A DNA stretch of 52,478 nucleotides from Deltaproteobacteria bacterium (GTDB taxonomy: Bacteria; Desulfobacterota; JACPFL01). Shown piece by piece: positions 838 through 32,829 of the stretch (position 1 is its first letter; each line of letters opens with the position of its first letter). Both the position numbers and the translations under genes were made by a program. The notes below the pieces were generated by a model. That model did no database searches. It worked only from the letters and a program-made list of their open reading frames with translations, and had not been told where the DNA came from. The DNA lies in the NCBI GenBank assembly GCA_016183025.1, contig JACPFL010000094.1, positions 1 to 52,478 of the forward strand. The letters are read 5' to 3'.

Positions 838-1089
838 ATGGGCTTCCTGCTGTTCGCCGGGATCATCATTGCAGGCTACGGCGTCATCAGCCTCGCCAGT
901 CCGGAGCTGCTGCACCGTGCAGCCCTCTGGTGGGACCACCTCTTCCTGCAGGCGAGCGACGCGGCGGAGCTCCACCGGCGGCCCATCGGGCTCGTCTGCC
1001 TGCTCGTGGCCGTCGTCCTCTTCATCTCGGCCTACCGCCTGCGCCAGGTCAGCATCGGGGCCATGTTCCGGCTGTTCTTCTGCCCATGA
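838..1089 (+). CDS. Small two-helix membrane protein
   Basis: An 83-residue hypothetical protein. The ORF track starts it at a TTG at 781, but the ATG at 838 has GAGGAG at optimal spacing and removes an Arg-rich, shadow-like extension, so I use 838. Two hydrophobic helices are visible (about residues 2-22 and 49-65), separated by an amphipathic loop with paired Trp (LWWDHLFLQ), followed by a short basic/aromatic tail. It is most likely an integral inner-membrane protein. Length and topology resemble many small uncharacterised membrane proteins and I cannot name a family. It stands alone: divergent from the coiled-coil gene, and followed by an inverted repeat overlapping its stop codon that may end the transcript. 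Confidence 0.6.
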   Translation: MGFLLFAGIIIAGYGVISLASPELLHRAALWWDHLFLQASDAAELHRRPIGLVCLLVAVVLFISAYRLRQVSIGAMFRLFFCP

Positions 1090-1109
1090 CTTCTCCCGGC
1101 CATGGGCAG
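1080..1109 (+). terminator. Inverted repeat overlapping the stop of the small membrane protein
   Basis: CTGCCCATG (1080-1088) and CATGGGCAG (1101-1109) form a perfect 9-bp stem around a 12-nt loop; the stop codon lies at the loop entry. There is no immediate U-tract (the next T-run is about 20 nt on), so it would be a weak or factor-assisted terminator. Confidence 0.45.
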
Positions 1110-1171
1110 ATCCGGCCCTCCCCCGCACTTTTCCCCTTGCCCTCTTTCTTCAGGCGCAGTATAAACAGCCC

Positions 1172-1186
1172 TGGCACACGGCTTGC
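1172..1186 (+). promoter_or_regulatory. Sigma-54 (RpoN) type -24/-12 promoter
   Basis: TGGCAC-ACGGC-TTGC has both invariant dinucleotides (GG at -24, GC at -12) at the correct spacing of the RpoN consensus TGGCAC-N5-TTGC. It is oriented toward the FecR-domain gene, predicting a start near 1197 and a leader of about 200 nt. An RpoN-dependent activator would be needed; none is encoded in the window. Confidence 0.6.
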
Positions 1187-1313
1187 GACCCTGGAGCACC
1201 GTGACCCGGCGCCGAAGAGAAGGAAAGCCGGAATGAGGCCATCAGGCCAGAGAACGCTCCAGCAGTTGCTTGCGGTTGCCTCCCCCCAGGCAGCCCATGC
1301 GCGCGCAGCGGTC

Positions 1314-1348
1314 GGGCTTAGCCTCCCGCCCGCTGAGCTACCCTTTTT
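1314..1348 (+). promoter_or_regulatory. Attenuator-like hairpin in the FecR leader
   Basis: GGG-CTTAGC (1314-1322) pairs with GCTGAG-cta-CCC (1332-1343), with one G-U pair and a 3-nt bulge, directly followed by TTTTT (1344-1348). The loop segment CCTCCCGCCC (1322-1331) is also complementary, with one bulge, to GGGCGGAGG (1380-1388), the Shine-Dalgarno of the gene starting at 1397. Two mutually exclusive folds are therefore possible. Structure only; not experimentally supported. Confidence 0.4.
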
Positions 1349-1396
1349 GTGGCTCTCACCCCGGAAGTTGTAGCCCGCTGGGCGGAGGGTAGAGCG

Positions 1397-2608
1397 ATGG
1401 AGAGGCGTGGATCCTGGCTCACGGCCGGCGGCGTCCTAGGAATCGGGCTCATCCTTCTCGTGGTCGGCGTTCAGCCGGCCTTCCCCATGGGGGGACGCCC
1501 CGAGGCGGAGGTGGCGGCCCCCGTGATCACGGTCAACCACGGCACCGTGGAGGTCCTCCCCCGTGGCGCCACGCAGTGGAAGCGCGCCTTCATCAATATG
1601 GCCCTGGCTCCCGGCGACACCCTGCGTACGGCCCCTCGCTCCAAGACGGAGATCCGCTTCCCTGGCGGCACCATCCGGGTCTTCGAAAACACGATCTTCG
1701 AGCTGCCGATGCGCCAGGAGGGCGGCAAGGTCTTCATTGACCTGGTCCGCATGCAGCTTGGCGACTCCCTGTTCAGCGTCACCAAGGGCAAGCTCCAGCA
1801 CGGCTTCGAGGTCCATACCCCGCACATGATCGCGGGCGTGCGGGGCACGCTCTTCGGCGTGCACACCGGCCCGCGCACCACGCGCCTGGCGGTGTACGAG
1901 GGCGTGGTGGCCGTCACCGACCGGCAGGCGCGGGCTGAGGGGCTGCGGGAGGTCCGGCCCTCGCAGATCACCGAGGTGGTCCGTGGCGCCCTGCCGACCG
2001 CGCCCAAGACCGTTCCGCTCACCAACCCGTGGCGGGGGTGGGAACAGCCGACGAACAACCGGATCCAAGATCTCGCGCCAAAGGGAGCGCCCACCCCCCC
2101 CTCGACCCCCGGTTCCTCCACACAGGGGAGCACAGGTGGCCGCGATCGCCAGGGCACGGCTAGCGGCACCTCCGCGTCCAGCACCGGATCAGACGCCCGT
2201 GCCACCACCAGTAGCACCGCCGCGCCAACCCCAGGCACCGGCGGTTCTACAGGGGCAGATCCCCGGGCGACCACCCGGGGGACTACCGGGGAAACCCTGC
2301 AGGGCCTGAGGGCGAGCAGCGAGTCCACACGGTCCCTGAGCGGCGAGGCTGCCAGGACTGCCCAGGAAGCCGCGAAGGAGGCTGCCAAGGCTGCCACGGA
2401 AGCGGCAAAGGCGGCGGCAGAAGCTGTCAAGGACGCGGCCAAGGCGGCCACCGAGGCCGCCAGAGAGGCGGCCAGGGAGGCCGCAAGGGAAGCGGCTAAA
2501 GCCGCCACCGAGACCGCCAAGGAGGCGGCCAAGAGCGCTGCCAAGGAGGCGGCCAAGCTCGCCAGCGAAGCCGCCATCGCAGGCAGCCGTTCGCCCTGCT
2601 TGCTGTAG
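1397..2608 (+). CDS. FecR-domain secreted protein with Ala/Lys-rich repeat tail
   Basis: A 403-residue protein. I start at the ATG at 1397 (MERRGSW), which has GGAGG 8 nt upstream, rather than at 1349. Residues 8-30 form a signal peptide or N-terminal anchor. Residues 43-200 are a FecR domain: the beta-rich body (VITVNHGTVEV) and the hallmark GVRGTLFGVHTG near 147. In iron uptake FecR transmits signals, but stand-alone periplasmic FecR domains are common in surface and polymer loci. Residues 225-315 are a Thr/Ser/Gly/Pro-rich disordered linker. Residues 320-395 are Ala-Lys-Glu helical repeats (EAAKAATEAAK style). The ending after the repeats (GSRSPCLL) does not resemble the rest, and the same frame resumes with more repeats at 2699, so this stop may be secondary. 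Downstream lies a TPR/outer-membrane barrel gene. A sigma-54 promoter lies upstream. Confidence 0.75.
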   Translation: MERRGSWLTAGGVLGIGLILLVVGVQPAFPMGGRPEAEVAAPVITVNHGTVEVLPRGATQWKRAFINMALAPGDTLRTAPRSKTEIRFPGGTIRVFENTIFELPMRQEGGKVFIDLVRMQLGDSLFSVTKGKLQHGFEVHTPHMIAGVRGTLFGVHTGPRTTRLAVYEGVVAVTDRQARAEGLREVRPSQITEVVRGALPTAPKTVPLTNPWRGWEQPTNNRIQDLAPKGAPTPPSTPGSSTQGSTGGRDRQGTASGTSASSTGSDARATTSSTAAPTPGTGGSTGADPRATTRGTTGETLQGLRASSESTRSLSGEAARTAQEAAKEAAKAATEAAKAAAEAVKDAAKAATEAAREAAREAAREAAKAATETAKEAAKSAAKEAAKLASEAAIAGSRSPCLL

Positions 2609-2704
2609 TTGGTTCAGTGTCCACTGTCAGTCCATAGTGGGAGTGATTCGAACGACCTTACAGAGTTGAGCGCAGCTGATCTTCGACTTCCTGACTGACA
2701 TCAC
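2576..2704. other. Non-repetitive lower-GC segment splitting two repeat blocks
   Basis: About 129 bp (43 codons, so frame-preserving) separate the Ala-rich tail of the FecR gene from the AKD repeats. The segment is visibly lower in GC, has no repeat character, and carries the in-frame TAG (2606) and TGA (2696). It includes an imperfect stem CCACT...AGTGG (about 2621-2640) and a TTCGAAC motif near 2647. It could be an inserted fragment or an assembly patch between repeats. Confidence 0.45.
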
Positions 2705-3112
2705 GCCAAAGACACGGCCAAAGAGGCGGCCAAGGACGCCTCCAAAGAGGCCGCTAAAGACGTCGCCAAGGACACCGCCAAAGAGGCGGCCAAGGACGCC
2801 TCCAAAGAGGCCGCCAAGGACGTCGCCAAGGACACCGCCAAGGACGTGGCCAAAGACGTCGCCAAAGACACGGCCAAAGACGTGGCCAAAGACGCCGCCA
2901 AAGACGCCGCTAAGGACTCCTCCAAGGCCGCCTCCGAGGTCGCCAAGGAGGCCACAAAGGATGCTGTAAAGGACGCGACCAAGGACGTGGCAAAGGATAC
3001 TGCGAAGGAGGCGACAAAGGATGTGGCGAAGGATGCGGTAAAGGATGTGGCCAAGGAGAGTGCCAGCGGGAGTGGAAAGTCCGACGGCGGGAGCGAGAAG
3101 AAAGGGAAGTAG
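2699..3112 (+). pseudogene. AKD/AKE tetrapeptide-repeat segment, probable detached tail of the FecR-domain gene
   Basis: The frame is open from 2699 to a TAG at 3112 and is the same frame as the FecR gene, but lacks a credible start: the first usable codon is a GTG at 2846 inside the repeats, with no Shine-Dalgarno. It encodes about 30 tetrapeptides of the form AKDx/AKEA (AKDT, AKEA, AKDA, SKEA, AKDV) and ends in a Gly/Ser/Lys-rich tail (SGSGKSDGGSEKKGK). Such repeats predict a long, strongly charged helix, like LEA-type or histone-H1-like repeat proteins, but I assign no function. Either this is the original C-terminus of the upstream protein, or an independent small repeat protein starting at 2846. 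The opposite-strand ORFs rich in LAASLA are shadows. Confidence 0.45.
2705..2824 (+). repeat. Two tandem copies of a 60-bp coding repeat
   Basis: 2705-2764 and 2765-2824 encode the same 20 residues (AKDTAKEAAKDASKEAAKDV) and differ at only a few third-codon positions. Shorter 12-bp AKDx units follow. The synonymous differences suggest an older duplication with selection on the peptide, and the structure is prone to slippage or misassembly. Confidence 0.8.
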
Positions 3113-4634
3113 TCCGGCCGGGTGCTCTTCGGACACCCTCTCTGCGCGATCTGCTTACAGTCGACCCCTGTCCGGCGTAGCCCTCCTCATTGTGGTGACC
3201 CTGGCCCCTTCATGGACCCGGGCTCAAGAGGCCCGGGAGTGGCTCAGCCGGGGCCAGGCCCACTTCGAGCGCCAGGAGTTCGAGCAGGCCGCCGAGGCCT
3301 TCGAGCGGGCCACCGAGGCCGCCCCCGACGAGGCAGAGCCCCACTTCCTCCTGGGCCTGACGTATGCCCGCCTCCGCGACTACCCGCGCGCGGCTGCCGC
3401 ACTCCTGAACGCTCGCGACCGGGACCCGGACCTGGAAGGACTCCCGCGCGAGCTTGGCGTGGCCCTCTATCGGATCGAGAGCTACGAGGCCGCGGCCGAG
3501 GCCCTCGAGGGGGCGGTGGAGCTGGAGCCCGACAACGCGGTGGCGCGGTACTACTTAGGCCTGGCCCGCTACCAGCTCGGGGAGTACCAGGCGGCCATCG
3601 AAGAGCTGGCCAGGGCGCGGGAGCTGGAGCCGGAGTTCACCACAGCCGTGACCCTGTACACCGGGCTGGCCTGGTTCCGGGCCGGCCGCTACCGCGAGGC
3701 CCGCGACAGCTTCGCCCGGCTCGTCACGGCCAGCCCCGGCTCCGAGGAGGCCAACCTGGCCCGCCGCTACCTGGAGACTATCGAGGAGCGGCTGCGCGGG
3801 CCGAAGCGCTGGAGCCTGCAGGCCAGCGCCGGGGTCGAGTACAACGACAACGTCACCACGTCCGCAGTCGAGACGATCACGGGCGAGCCGGACGTGGCTG
3901 CCGTCTTCACCGTCTCGGCCGAGGTCAAGCCGCTCCTGACCCCGACCTGGGAGGCGGCCCTCGACTACAACTTCTTCCTGACGGTGTACGAGGAGCTGAA
4001 GGCCCAGAACATCGAGGCCCACACGCCCGGCCTCACCCTCGCCTTCAAGCAGGGGCCGTGGGAGTTCGGGCTGCGCTACGCCTTTGACTACATCTACCTG
4101 TCGAGCAGCCGCGATGGCCTCCTCCGGATCCAGAACCTGAGCCCCACGGTCAGCGTGCTCGCCACCCCCACCCTGTACACCCAGGTTCGCTACCGCTTCC
4201 AGGACAAGGACTTCTTCACCAGCCCCGACCGCACCGGGACCAACAACGGGGTCGGGATCACGCAGTACGTGTTCTTCGACGGGGGCAAGGGCTACGTCTC
4301 CGGGACCTACCGCTACGAGCTGGAGAACACCCGCAGCCCCGACTTCGATTACCAGGGGCACCGCCCTAGCCTGAGCCTCCGCCTCCCCCTGCCCCTCGAG
4401 GTCCGCTTCGACCTGAACCTGGAGTACTACGTCAAGCAGTTCCGCCACATCGACTCGACCGCGGGCAACCAGCGGCACGACGAGCGCTGGGGCTTCTCCA
4501 CCCGGTTCTCCAGGCCGGTCGCAGCCCCCCTCCGGTTGACCCTGGAGTACAGCTACACCAACAACCACTCCACGATCCGGAGCTTCACGTACCGCGAGAA
4601 CATCGTTGGGCTCAACCTGACCGCATCCTTCTGA
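3045..4634 (+). CDS. TPR protein with C-terminal outer-membrane beta-barrel (SLAM-like architecture)
   Basis: A 529-residue ORF. A signal peptide lies at about residues 41-60 (VALLIVVTLAPSWTRA, cleavage before QEAREW). Residues 62-255 hold about five TPR units (WLSRGQAHFERQEFEQAAEAFERA; AVARYYLGLARYQLGEYQAA). Residues 260-529 are alternating aromatic/polar beta strands with frequent Tyr-Asn and Arg-Tyr pairs, ending LNLTASF with the terminal Phe typical of outer-membrane proteins. A periplasmic TPR domain followed by a barrel of about 270 residues is the layout of surface-lipoprotein assembly modulators (SLAM, DUF560). That is an architectural analogy; I see no diagnostic motif. The start is uncertain: the ATG at 3045 overlaps the repeat segment by 68 bp and lacks a Shine-Dalgarno; GTG 3072 or CTG 3168 are alternatives, the last giving a compact signal peptide. 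It converges with the O-antigen ligase gene, the stops 11 bp apart. Confidence 0.7.
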   Translation: MWPRRVPAGVESPTAGARRKGSSPAGCSSDTLSARSAYSRPLSGVALLIVVTLAPSWTRAQEAREWLSRGQAHFERQEFEQAAEAFERATEAAPDEAEPHFLLGLTYARLRDYPRAAAALLNARDRDPDLEGLPRELGVALYRIESYEAAAEALEGAVELEPDNAVARYYLGLARYQLGEYQAAIEELARARELEPEFTTAVTLYTGLAWFRAGRYREARDSFARLVTASPGSEEANLARRYLETIEERLRGPKRWSLQASAGVEYNDNVTTSAVETITGEPDVAAVFTVSAEVKPLLTPTWEAALDYNFFLTVYEELKAQNIEAHTPGLTLAFKQGPWEFGLRYAFDYIYLSSSRDGLLRIQNLSPTVSVLATPTLYTQVRYRFQDKDFFTSPDRTGTNNGVGITQYVFFDGGKGYVSGTYRYELENTRSPDFDYQGHRPSLSLRLPLPLEVRFDLNLEYYVKQFRHIDSTAGNQRHDERWGFSTRFSRPVAAPLRLTLEYSYTNNHSTIRSFTYRENIVGLNLTASF

Positions 4635-4645
4635 GCCGGGCCCGC

Positions 4646-6907
4646 TCAACGTGAGGCTTCGAGGGCGGGGATCAGCTCCCGGAGAAAGCCCTGGGAGGGG
4701 TCCTCGGTGAGGGCCCGGCGGAAGGCCGCAGCGGCCTCGGGCCGCCGCCCCTGGCGCAGGGCCGTCCACCCCATCCCCAGCAGCGCCGGGACAAATCGGG
4801 GGTTCGCGGCAAGGGCCTCCCGGAACTCAGCCTCAGCCTCCCTGACCCGCCCCTGCCCCAGAAGCGTCCGCCCGATCTCCACTCGAACCACTGCCTGCGG
4901 CCCGGGCGCCGCCAGGGCGTCCCGAAAGGCCGCCAGGGCCTCCTCGTACCGGCCGAGCTGGCGCAGGAGCTGACCGGTCAGGTACCGGACGGCGGGCTGG
5001 TCGGGTCCGGGGCGCGCGATCGGCTGGAGCACGGCGAGCCCCTCCGCAGGCTGTCCGGTCCGCCCATAGGCCTCGGCCAGGACGAGTCGTGCCTGCAGCG
5101 GGGCCTCGCCCCGGCGGACGGCCTCGCGGAGCAGGGCGATGGCCCGATCGGGCAACCCCGCCTGGAGCAGGGCGCGGCCGACCTGGTAGGCCGAGAGGTG
5201 GCGGCCCGGGTTCAGGCGCCGCGCCTGCTCCAACAGCTCCCCGACCTCGGCCTGGCGCGCCTGCGCCTGCTCCCCGCCGTGCACGAGGTAGAGCTGGGCC
5301 AGGAGCCAGTACGGCGCATCGTCCCGCGGGCTCAGGGCCATGCCACGGCGCAGCGCGGTCTCGACCTCCACGAGCAGGCGCCCCTGCCCGGTGCGCCGAT
5401 ACTGGGCCAGCAGGGCTCCGCCGAGGTTGACCACATAGCCCGCCACCACCGGGTCCAGTCGGGTGGCCAGCCGGAAGGCCCGGGCCGCCTCTTCAGGCTG
5501 TCCGGCCTTCAGGCGGGCAATGCCGCGCTGATTGATGAGGGAGACGACGTACGGGTGGACCAGCGCCAGGGCCAGCAGGAGTCCGGCCGCGGTCACGACG
5601 GCCTGCCCCCGCCGGGCTGCCCACCCCTCCGCGGCCCAGGCCATCCGATGCACGGAGAGGACCCCCGCGCGCGCGGCGAGCTGCAGCACGAATGCGGCAT
5701 AGCCGGCGAACAGCAGGAGCAGCCCCGGGACGCGGAGGTTGAAGTCCCCCCCGCTGTGGAGCAGCAACCCCACGGCCCCGGCCAGCGCCCCGCCCAGGGC
5801 GAGCTGCTCCTGCGGGCCCAGTCCGGGCGCGCCCACTGCCCGAAGCCCCGCCAGCAGGATCGCCCCCAGGAAGAGCAGCAGGGGCAGGGTCCCCAGCGCG
5901 CCTACCTCCGCCCAGAACTGCAGGTAGTCGTTGTGCGCGAAGAAGTGCACCTCGTTCGGGAAAAAGCGGGTGTTCATGAACTGCGGGTAGACCTGGTGGT
6001 AGGTGGCGATCCCCGTGCCCAGGATCGGCTGGCGGCGGATCACCTCCCAGGCGCTGCCCCACATGATCAGCCGGGCCTGCCACCCGCCCGGCACCGCGAC
6101 CGTCGGCGCCTCGGGCCCGACCGGCTGGAGGAGCTCGGCCGTCCGCCCCCCCAGGATCACGCGGGACTCGGAGGGGATCGTCCTCAGGAGGACGGCCGTG
6201 ACCAGGAGGAGCATGACACCGAGCGCTGCCAACCACCCCCGGTTGGCCCGGACCATCTCCCGGAAGCCGCCCCAGCGCCACGTCAGGACGATCAACAGGG
6301 CCAGGGCTCCCCCGACCCCGCCGATCCAGGCCCCGCGGCTCCCGCTGAGCAGGAGGGCCGCGTAGTGGAGGAGCACCAGGCCCAGCCCGCCAAACCGTCG
6401 CCAGGGCGAGGGCGGCCCCCCAAGCCAGGCTAGGGCGAGGGGCGGGAGGACGAGGACCAGGAGGGCGGCAAAGGTGTTCGGCACGACGAAGATCGAATGG
6501 GCCCGCGGCCCGTACGCCCCGCCCCCCAGGTAGACCTGCGCGATCCCGTGGACGGAGGCGGCGGTCGAGAAAGCCAGCAGCACCTGGAAGAGCCGCCGCC
6601 ACGCGGCCCAGGGCCAGCGGGCGGCCAGCAGCGCGTACAGCACGCCCAGGGTCATCCCGTAGAGCACGGTGCCGTACCGGCTCAGGGCCCGATCGACCGC
6701 GTAGAGGTTCGAGAGGACGACCACGGCCAGGAAGGCGAGGGCAGCCAGGTGCAGCCGCCGTCCCGGGATGGTGACCTCCCCCTCATCGAGGACCTGTCGG
6801 GCGATCACCAGAACCAGGAGGAGCGCCAGGAGCGAGACTGCCGTGATGAAGCCATACCGGTAGGGGCCCGGATCGAAGGGCGCCAGCAGGAGCAGGGCCG
6901 CGGCCAC
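4646..6907 (-). CDS. O-antigen ligase / Wzy-type polymerase with C-terminal TPR domain
   Basis: A 753-residue polytopic membrane protein. Residues 1-430 contain about a dozen hydrophobic helices. The O-antigen ligase domain includes SGSRGAWIGGVGG near 187 and a long periplasmic loop (about 255-330: WGSAWEVIRRQPILGTGIATYHQVYPQF, then HFFAHNDYLQFWAEVG), which carries the His and Arg typical of WaaL/PglL/Wzy enzymes. Residues 450-750 are TPR repeats (GIARLKAGQPEEAARAFRLA; LGRYEEALAAFRDAL). The family transfers or polymerises undecaprenyl-linked glycans at the periplasmic face; the substrate (lipid A, protein or polymer) cannot be told. The GTG at 6907 is used, 56 nt after the ABC permease stop; CTG/GTG alternatives exist nearby. 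It is the last gene of the long minus-strand run and converges with the TPR-barrel gene. Confidence 0.8.
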   Translation of the reverse strand: MAAALLLLAPFDPGPYRYGFITAVSLLALLLVLVIARQVLDEGEVTIPGRRLHLAALAFLAVVVLSNLYAVDRALSRYGTVLYGMTLGVLYALLAARWPWAAWRRLFQVLLAFSTAASVHGIAQVYLGGGAYGPRAHSIFVVPNTFAALLVLVLPPLALAWLGGPPSPWRRFGGLGLVLLHYAALLLSGSRGAWIGGVGGALALLIVLTWRWGGFREMVRANRGWLAALGVMLLLVTAVLLRTIPSESRVILGGRTAELLQPVGPEAPTVAVPGGWQARLIMWGSAWEVIRRQPILGTGIATYHQVYPQFMNTRFFPNEVHFFAHNDYLQFWAEVGALGTLPLLLFLGAILLAGLRAVGAPGLGPQEQLALGGALAGAVGLLLHSGGDFNLRVPGLLLLFAGYAAFVLQLAARAGVLSVHRMAWAAEGWAARRGQAVVTAAGLLLALALVHPYVVSLINQRGIARLKAGQPEEAARAFRLATRLDPVVAGYVVNLGGALLAQYRRTGQGRLLVEVETALRRGMALSPRDDAPYWLLAQLYLVHGGEQAQARQAEVGELLEQARRLNPGRHLSAYQVGRALLQAGLPDRAIALLREAVRRGEAPLQARLVLAEAYGRTGQPAEGLAVLQPIARPGPDQPAVRYLTGQLLRQLGRYEEALAAFRDALAAPGPQAVVRVEIGRTLLGQGRVREAEAEFREALAANPRFVPALLGMGWTALRQGRRPEAAAAFRRALTEDPSQGFLRELIPALEASR

Positions 6908-32037: not shown

Positions 32038-32829
32038 TCAGCGACCCGAGAGGGCCCCCTTCAGGTCGCGGATGAGCGCTTGCACCGGCGCCGGCGCCCC
32101 CCGGTGGGCCTCGACGAGCTGCACCAGGGCGCTCCCCACCACCACGCCGTCGGCCATCCGCCCGGCCTCGACGGCCTGCTGCGCGGTGGCGATCCCGAAC
32201 CCGACGCAGATGGGCAGGGCCGTCAGCCGGCGGATCTCACGGATGCGCTCATCCACGGCATACGCCAGATCGGGCCTGGCGCCTGTGACCCCGGTCACCG
32301 CCACCAGGTAGAGGAACCCGCTCGCCTCCCTGACGATCCATCGGAGCCGGTCCGGCGTCGTGGTCGGCGCCACCAGCAGGATCGTGTCCAGCCCTGCCGG
32401 CTCGCTCTCGGCCTTCATCTCCGCCAGCTCCTCCGGCGGGAGGTCCACGACCAGCAGCCCGTCCACCCCGGCCTGCCCCGCAGCCGTGGCCAGGGCCCGG
32501 AGCCCGAAGGCGTAGAACGGATTGTAGTAGCCAAACAGGACCAGGGGGACCGGGGAGTGCTTGCGCACGGCCTCGACCAGCCGGAGCACGCCGCGCAGGG
32601 TCGTTCCTGCGGCCAGGGCCCGCTGGCAGGCCTGCTGGATCACCGGGCCGTCGGCGACCGGATCGGAAAAGGGGACGCCCAGCTCGATCACGTCCGCCCC
32701 CGCCTCGGCTGCGGCCAGCACCAGCTCCTCGCTGGCGCGCAGGTCCGGGTCGCCGGCGGTCAGGTAGGCGACCAGGGCCCGCTCGCCGCGCTCGCGCAGG
32801 GCCGTGAAGGTCTGTCCGAGGCGCCTCAC
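32038..32829 (-). CDS. trpA: Tryptophan synthase alpha subunit
   Basis: A 263-residue TIM barrel cleaving indole-3-glycerol phosphate to indole and glyceraldehyde-3-phosphate. The catalytic Glu lies in [17 protein letters not shown], with the Asp in the same signature; the phosphate site near the C-terminal end reads [10 protein letters not shown]. Overlaps trpB by 4 nt and is the last gene of the trp block. Confidence 0.96.

Follow-up and report, generated by a model that had tools for sequence, protein, structure and literature searches.

In some genes, a sigma-70 promoter overlaps a sigma-54 promoter. A known theme among the functions of sigma-54 is to control the cell exterior (PMC3162934). 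Promoters of this class carry -24/-12 elements, as exemplified by the glnK site TGGCACATCCTTTGC in the sigma-54 regulon table of Salmonella, and their activator-binding sites often lie about 70-150 bp upstream (PMC3844500). The closest described systems also include the PEP-CTERM genes governed by PrsK/PrsR, in which the mean distance from the sigma-54 site to the start codon is 71 nt (PMC1569441). Here, we compare these systems with the region ahead of a FecR-domain gene in a stretch of bacterial DNA of 52,478 nucleotides, the whole of which is called the window. We propose, with a probability of roughly 0.7, that two overlapping promoters, one of the sigma-70 type and one of sigma-54, serve this envelope gene, and that it is controlled at the DNA level.

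The locus shares the GG and TGC elements, their spacing, the intergenic position, and the orientation on the same strand as the gene with the -24/-12 promoters (PMC3844500). As is general for sigma-54 promoters, rpoN and activators are encoded in the genome, and the gene is of the envelope type, as in PMC3162934. It departs from typical members in the length of the FecR-gene leader (about 200 nt) and in a putative activator motif that is not common to the other sites of this genome. A surface-directed product, a sigma-54 site, a sizeable intergenic region, and a nearby O-antigen ligase-like gene (4646-6907) recall the PrsK/PrsR PEP-CTERM genes (PMC1569441). In contrast to them, the FecR product lacks a PEP-CTERM tail (its ORF ends in AIAGSRSPCLL, and the in-frame continuation terminates in GSGKSDGGSEKKGK), and the site stands 210 nt from the start codon. 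The locus also resembles genes whose sigma-70 and sigma-54 promoters overlap: both types stand in about 50 bp ahead of the gene, an overlap that here is predicted from sequence. The features are collected in Table 1.

Table 1. Positions in the window of the features upstream of and at the FecR-domain gene
Feature	Coordinates	Strand	Remark
Perfect 10-bp inverted repeat TCTGCCCATG-N12-CATGGGCAGA	1079-1110		About -119 to -88 from the predicted sigma-54 start
Sigma-70-type promoter-like site TTGCCC-N17-TATAAA	1137-1165	+	9/12 consensus positions
Sigma-54 (RpoN) -24/-12 promoter element TGGCACACGGCTTGC (TGGCAC-ACGGC-TTGC)	1172-1186	+	Exact match
Predicted leader from the sigma-54 start	1198-1396	+	199 nt
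Leader ORF	1233-1373	+	46 codons; AAGGA 8 nt before ATG; weak candidate leader peptide
Terminator-like stem plus T5	1315-1348	+	Judged no functional terminator
Putative anti-Shine-Dalgarno CCTCCCGCCC	1322-1331	+	Duplex with the Shine-Dalgarno, -17.5 kcal/mol
Shine-Dalgarno of the FecR-domain gene, GGGCGGAGG	1380-1388	+	8 nt from ATG 1397
FecR-domain protein gene	1397-2608	+	PF04773, residues 74-171, Pfam 1.7e-11, over cut-off

The FecR-domain protein consists of a signal-like N terminus, the FecR domain, and an Ala/Lys-rich tail. The core of its Shine-Dalgarno sequence is GGAGG at 1384-1388, and a gap of roughly 300 bp separates the gene from the small upstream ORF at 838-1089. The tail is encoded by a 12-nt repeat, which is split at 2585-2705 by an unrelated stretch of about 110 bp containing the stop codon at 2608, and the repeat picks up again in the same frame at about 2702-3112. 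The interrupting stretch has no second copy in the genome, and it may be an insertion or an assembly join. Directly 3' of the FecR gene lies a gene for a TPR protein (3045-4634), which probably bears a C-terminal outer-membrane barrel (weak TIGR03016 match at 420-508) and which is possibly in one operon with the FecR gene.

The TGGCAC-N5-TTGC element reported in the initial annotation was found as described. Its GG (-24) and TGC (-12) stand at the correct fixed spacing, and the window has no second exact copy; shuffled sequences have 0.05 on average (5 of 100 shuffles contain one). The start predicted from it is the A at about 1198. The genome encodes RpoN itself (DNA-binding domain PF04552, E = 1.3e-62, contig C154), together with 21 matches to the enhancer-binding activator domain PF00158 (AAA+), 18 of which are strong (E < 1e-50). 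The pattern as such is not numerically enriched genome-wide, since its counts do not exceed those of a reversed-pattern control: four exact copies in 3.68 Mb compare with four of the reversed pattern, and 114 copies with one mismatch allowed compare with 169. These counts, together with the sigma-70-type site and its 17-nt spacing, favor the alternative that the -24/-12 match arose by chance and that the FecR gene is transcribed solely from the site at 1137-1165. The positions of the matches speak against it. All four exact copies are non-coding and have a same-strand gene 76-274 nt downstream according to our own gene caller, whereas only one of the four reversed-pattern copies is at such a promoter position and the other three are inside coding sequence. 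Moreover, the exact match in question falls within the intergenic region ahead of the FecR gene, and a paralogue of that gene carries a similar site with correct spacing (see below). A chance match is thus considered rather unlikely.

Among the matches listed (30 of each kind), non-coding positions account for 18/30 forward sites versus 8/29 control sites. Of the TGGCAT-N5-TTGC sites, 12 were examined and 10 proved to be non-coding, but these were picked after the site list had been seen, so that only the four exact sites constitute an unbiased positional test. The gene caller is a simple codon-usage model trained on the genes of the window, and its site-to-gene distances are approximate because it is crude; the start of the FecR gene, for example, was placed at 1460 instead of 1397. 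Genes located 3' of sigma-54-like sites include two sensor kinases, a PilZ protein, a PilA-like pilin, a DUF1344 protein, and one with a weak trypsin-like match. The pilin site (L121) was not counted as firm evidence, being just 16 nt from the start codon. One of the two sensor kinases directly follows a sigma-54 activator gene. At locus L120, an activator gene (3-1307) is followed by a PAS/HAMP sensor kinase gene (1772-3013) with TGGCATGACGTTTGC between them, an arrangement that suggests an autoregulated two-component pair.

No orthologue of the FecR gene was found in two gene scans of the genome contigs and a search of 395 genomes of the phylum, the latter giving FecR-domain homologues at 28-39% identity only. 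The gene's nearest relative lies in the same genome, on contig C70; this paralogue is 39% identical overall and 44% identical over the FecR part. It carries TGGCATGGATCTGGC 84 nt before its GTG start, with 8/10 consensus positions and the right spacing. When two mismatches are tolerated, the window has about one match per 4 kb on each strand (25 found versus 42 expected from shuffles), and from this frequency the probability of a chance site on the right strand within about 150 nt is a few per cent. The paralogue site is therefore suggestive of sigma-54 control, not proof of it. A sigma-54 site was absent from the upstream sequence of all 27 distant FecR homologues, a result that says little because these are not orthologues. 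The paralogue (L024:673-2676, minus strand) has a different charged repeat tail of the ERVERVERPERVE type, and the low-complexity tails of the two FecR proteins of the genome are unrelated to each other.

On the strength of the promoter-like placement of the exact sites, and because the genome encodes RpoN and many activators, a sigma-54 promoter for the FecR gene, as originally annotated, is well supported by sequence. We regard it as probable and as ordinary in kind. A second promoter-like site, of the sigma-70 type, was overlooked in the initial annotation. Its -35/-10 spacer of 17 nt is the best spacing (16-18 nt expected), and its TATAAA is the sole copy of TATAA[A/T] on either strand of the window. 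The window contains three sites of this class, not one of them within a called gene, and the reversed-sequence control contains none. The stricter promoter scan missed the site because it required T at the last -10 position. No such site was found near 13 other sigma-54-like sites of the genome. The start predicted from it, at about 1172, falls on the -24 element.

Further upstream, the inverted repeat at 1079-1110 possibly represents an activator-binding site, to judge from its suitable distance. It overlaps the stop codon of the ORF at 838-1089, and for that reason a hairpin at the 3' end of this ORF is an equally likely interpretation. An activator-binding motif common to several sites was considered and rejected: the genome has no second copy of the repeat even when three mismatches are allowed, and the inverted repeats at the other sigma-54-like sites bear no resemblance to it. 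A shared activator site accordingly lacks support.

Here, we propose how the two promoters may act together. The sigma-70-type promoter would direct transcription from near 1172 and supply a basal level. Transcription from the sigma-54 promoter would require an activator and begin near 1198, with a leader of about 200 nt, and induction would depend on one of the enhancer-binding proteins of the genome, possibly bound at the inverted repeat. The predicted sigma-70 start lies on the -24 element, so only one holoenzyme could occupy the DNA at a time. The positions of the starts, the exclusion of one holoenzyme by the other, and the involvement of an activator with a site of its own are inferred.

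The leader ORF at 1233-1373 offers a different kind of control, in which it would be translated and coupled to the FecR gene, with ribosomes opening the pairing around the Shine-Dalgarno sequence and stopping 23 nt before the ATG. The AAGGA at a proper distance from its ATG agrees with this idea, as does its length, which is reached in only 27 of 1000 shuffles. The ORF also covers the pairing partners 1322-1331 and 1359-1363. However, its codon usage is not coding-like. The codon score of the leader region is negative in every frame, the best forward frame giving -25.7, compared with +55.6 for the FecR domain and +35.1 for the ORF at 838-1089. Translational coupling through the leader ORF is therefore regarded as improbable.

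The initial annotation also proposed an RNA-level switch on the same gene, in which a terminator-like stem competes with a helix that sequesters the Shine-Dalgarno sequence and thereby tunes expression of the FecR gene. The motifs behind the two folds are where they had been placed (CCTCCCGCCC at 1322-1331, GGGCGGAGG at 1380-1388, and T5 at 1344-1348), and both helices can be drawn, but the terminator geometry and the population of the Shine-Dalgarno pairing did not hold up. On folding, the stability of the leader is like that of shuffled sequences (z = -0.44 for the stretch 1187-1440), and an Rfam search of the leader with E up to 10 gave no relevant match. A Shine-Dalgarno duplex at least as strong as the proposed one was obtained in 36 of 500 shuffled leaders (7%) and in 17 of 262 genomic segments. 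In the predicted ensemble, the Shine-Dalgarno region is partly paired with 1359-1363 and 1373-1376, not with 1322-1331, and forcing the proposed helix costs +4.9 kcal/mol. A tRNA-like stretch at 1310-1345 (minus strand) raised the possibility of a tRNA remnant, which was rejected; ARAGORN reports only a tRNA-Val at 32205.

The terminator-like stem has 8 bp (-10.7 kcal/mol) with a 9-nt region between its arms. It stops at 1338, so that ACCCT intervenes and the stem ends 5 nt short of the T-run, and forcing it in the leader costs +17.1 kcal/mol. The terminator scan does not include this stem among its hits. A T5 preceded by folding this strong was seen in only 1 of 500 shuffles, which speaks for the switch; this rarity mostly reflects the scarcity of T-runs at 71% G+C, and the fold that yields the energy ends farther from the T-run than the annotated stem. 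The T-run is thus mildly notable, and the geometry does not fit an intrinsic terminator. A search of 58 related genomes for the leader turned up no homologue; one 28-nt match was attributed to chance. Taken together, the folds look like generic chance pairing in a very G+C-rich RNA, and we consider the RNA switch very improbable. If there is a second layer of control, the overlapping sigma-70-type promoter is more likely to provide it than an RNA switch.

A fuller scheme, in which mutually exclusive sigma-70 and sigma-54 holoenzymes act on roughly 50 bp, produce two leaders about 26 nt apart at the 5' end, and have both coupled to the FecR gene by a translated leader ORF, is likewise very unlikely.

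The attractive drawing of an RNA switch in a leader of such high G+C content is of the kind expected by chance. The proposed promoter region implies that sigma-54 probably controls the gene for a secreted FecR-domain envelope protein in a poorly sampled lineage, and the four exact, promoter-placed sigma-54 sites are a starting point for the regulon of that lineage.
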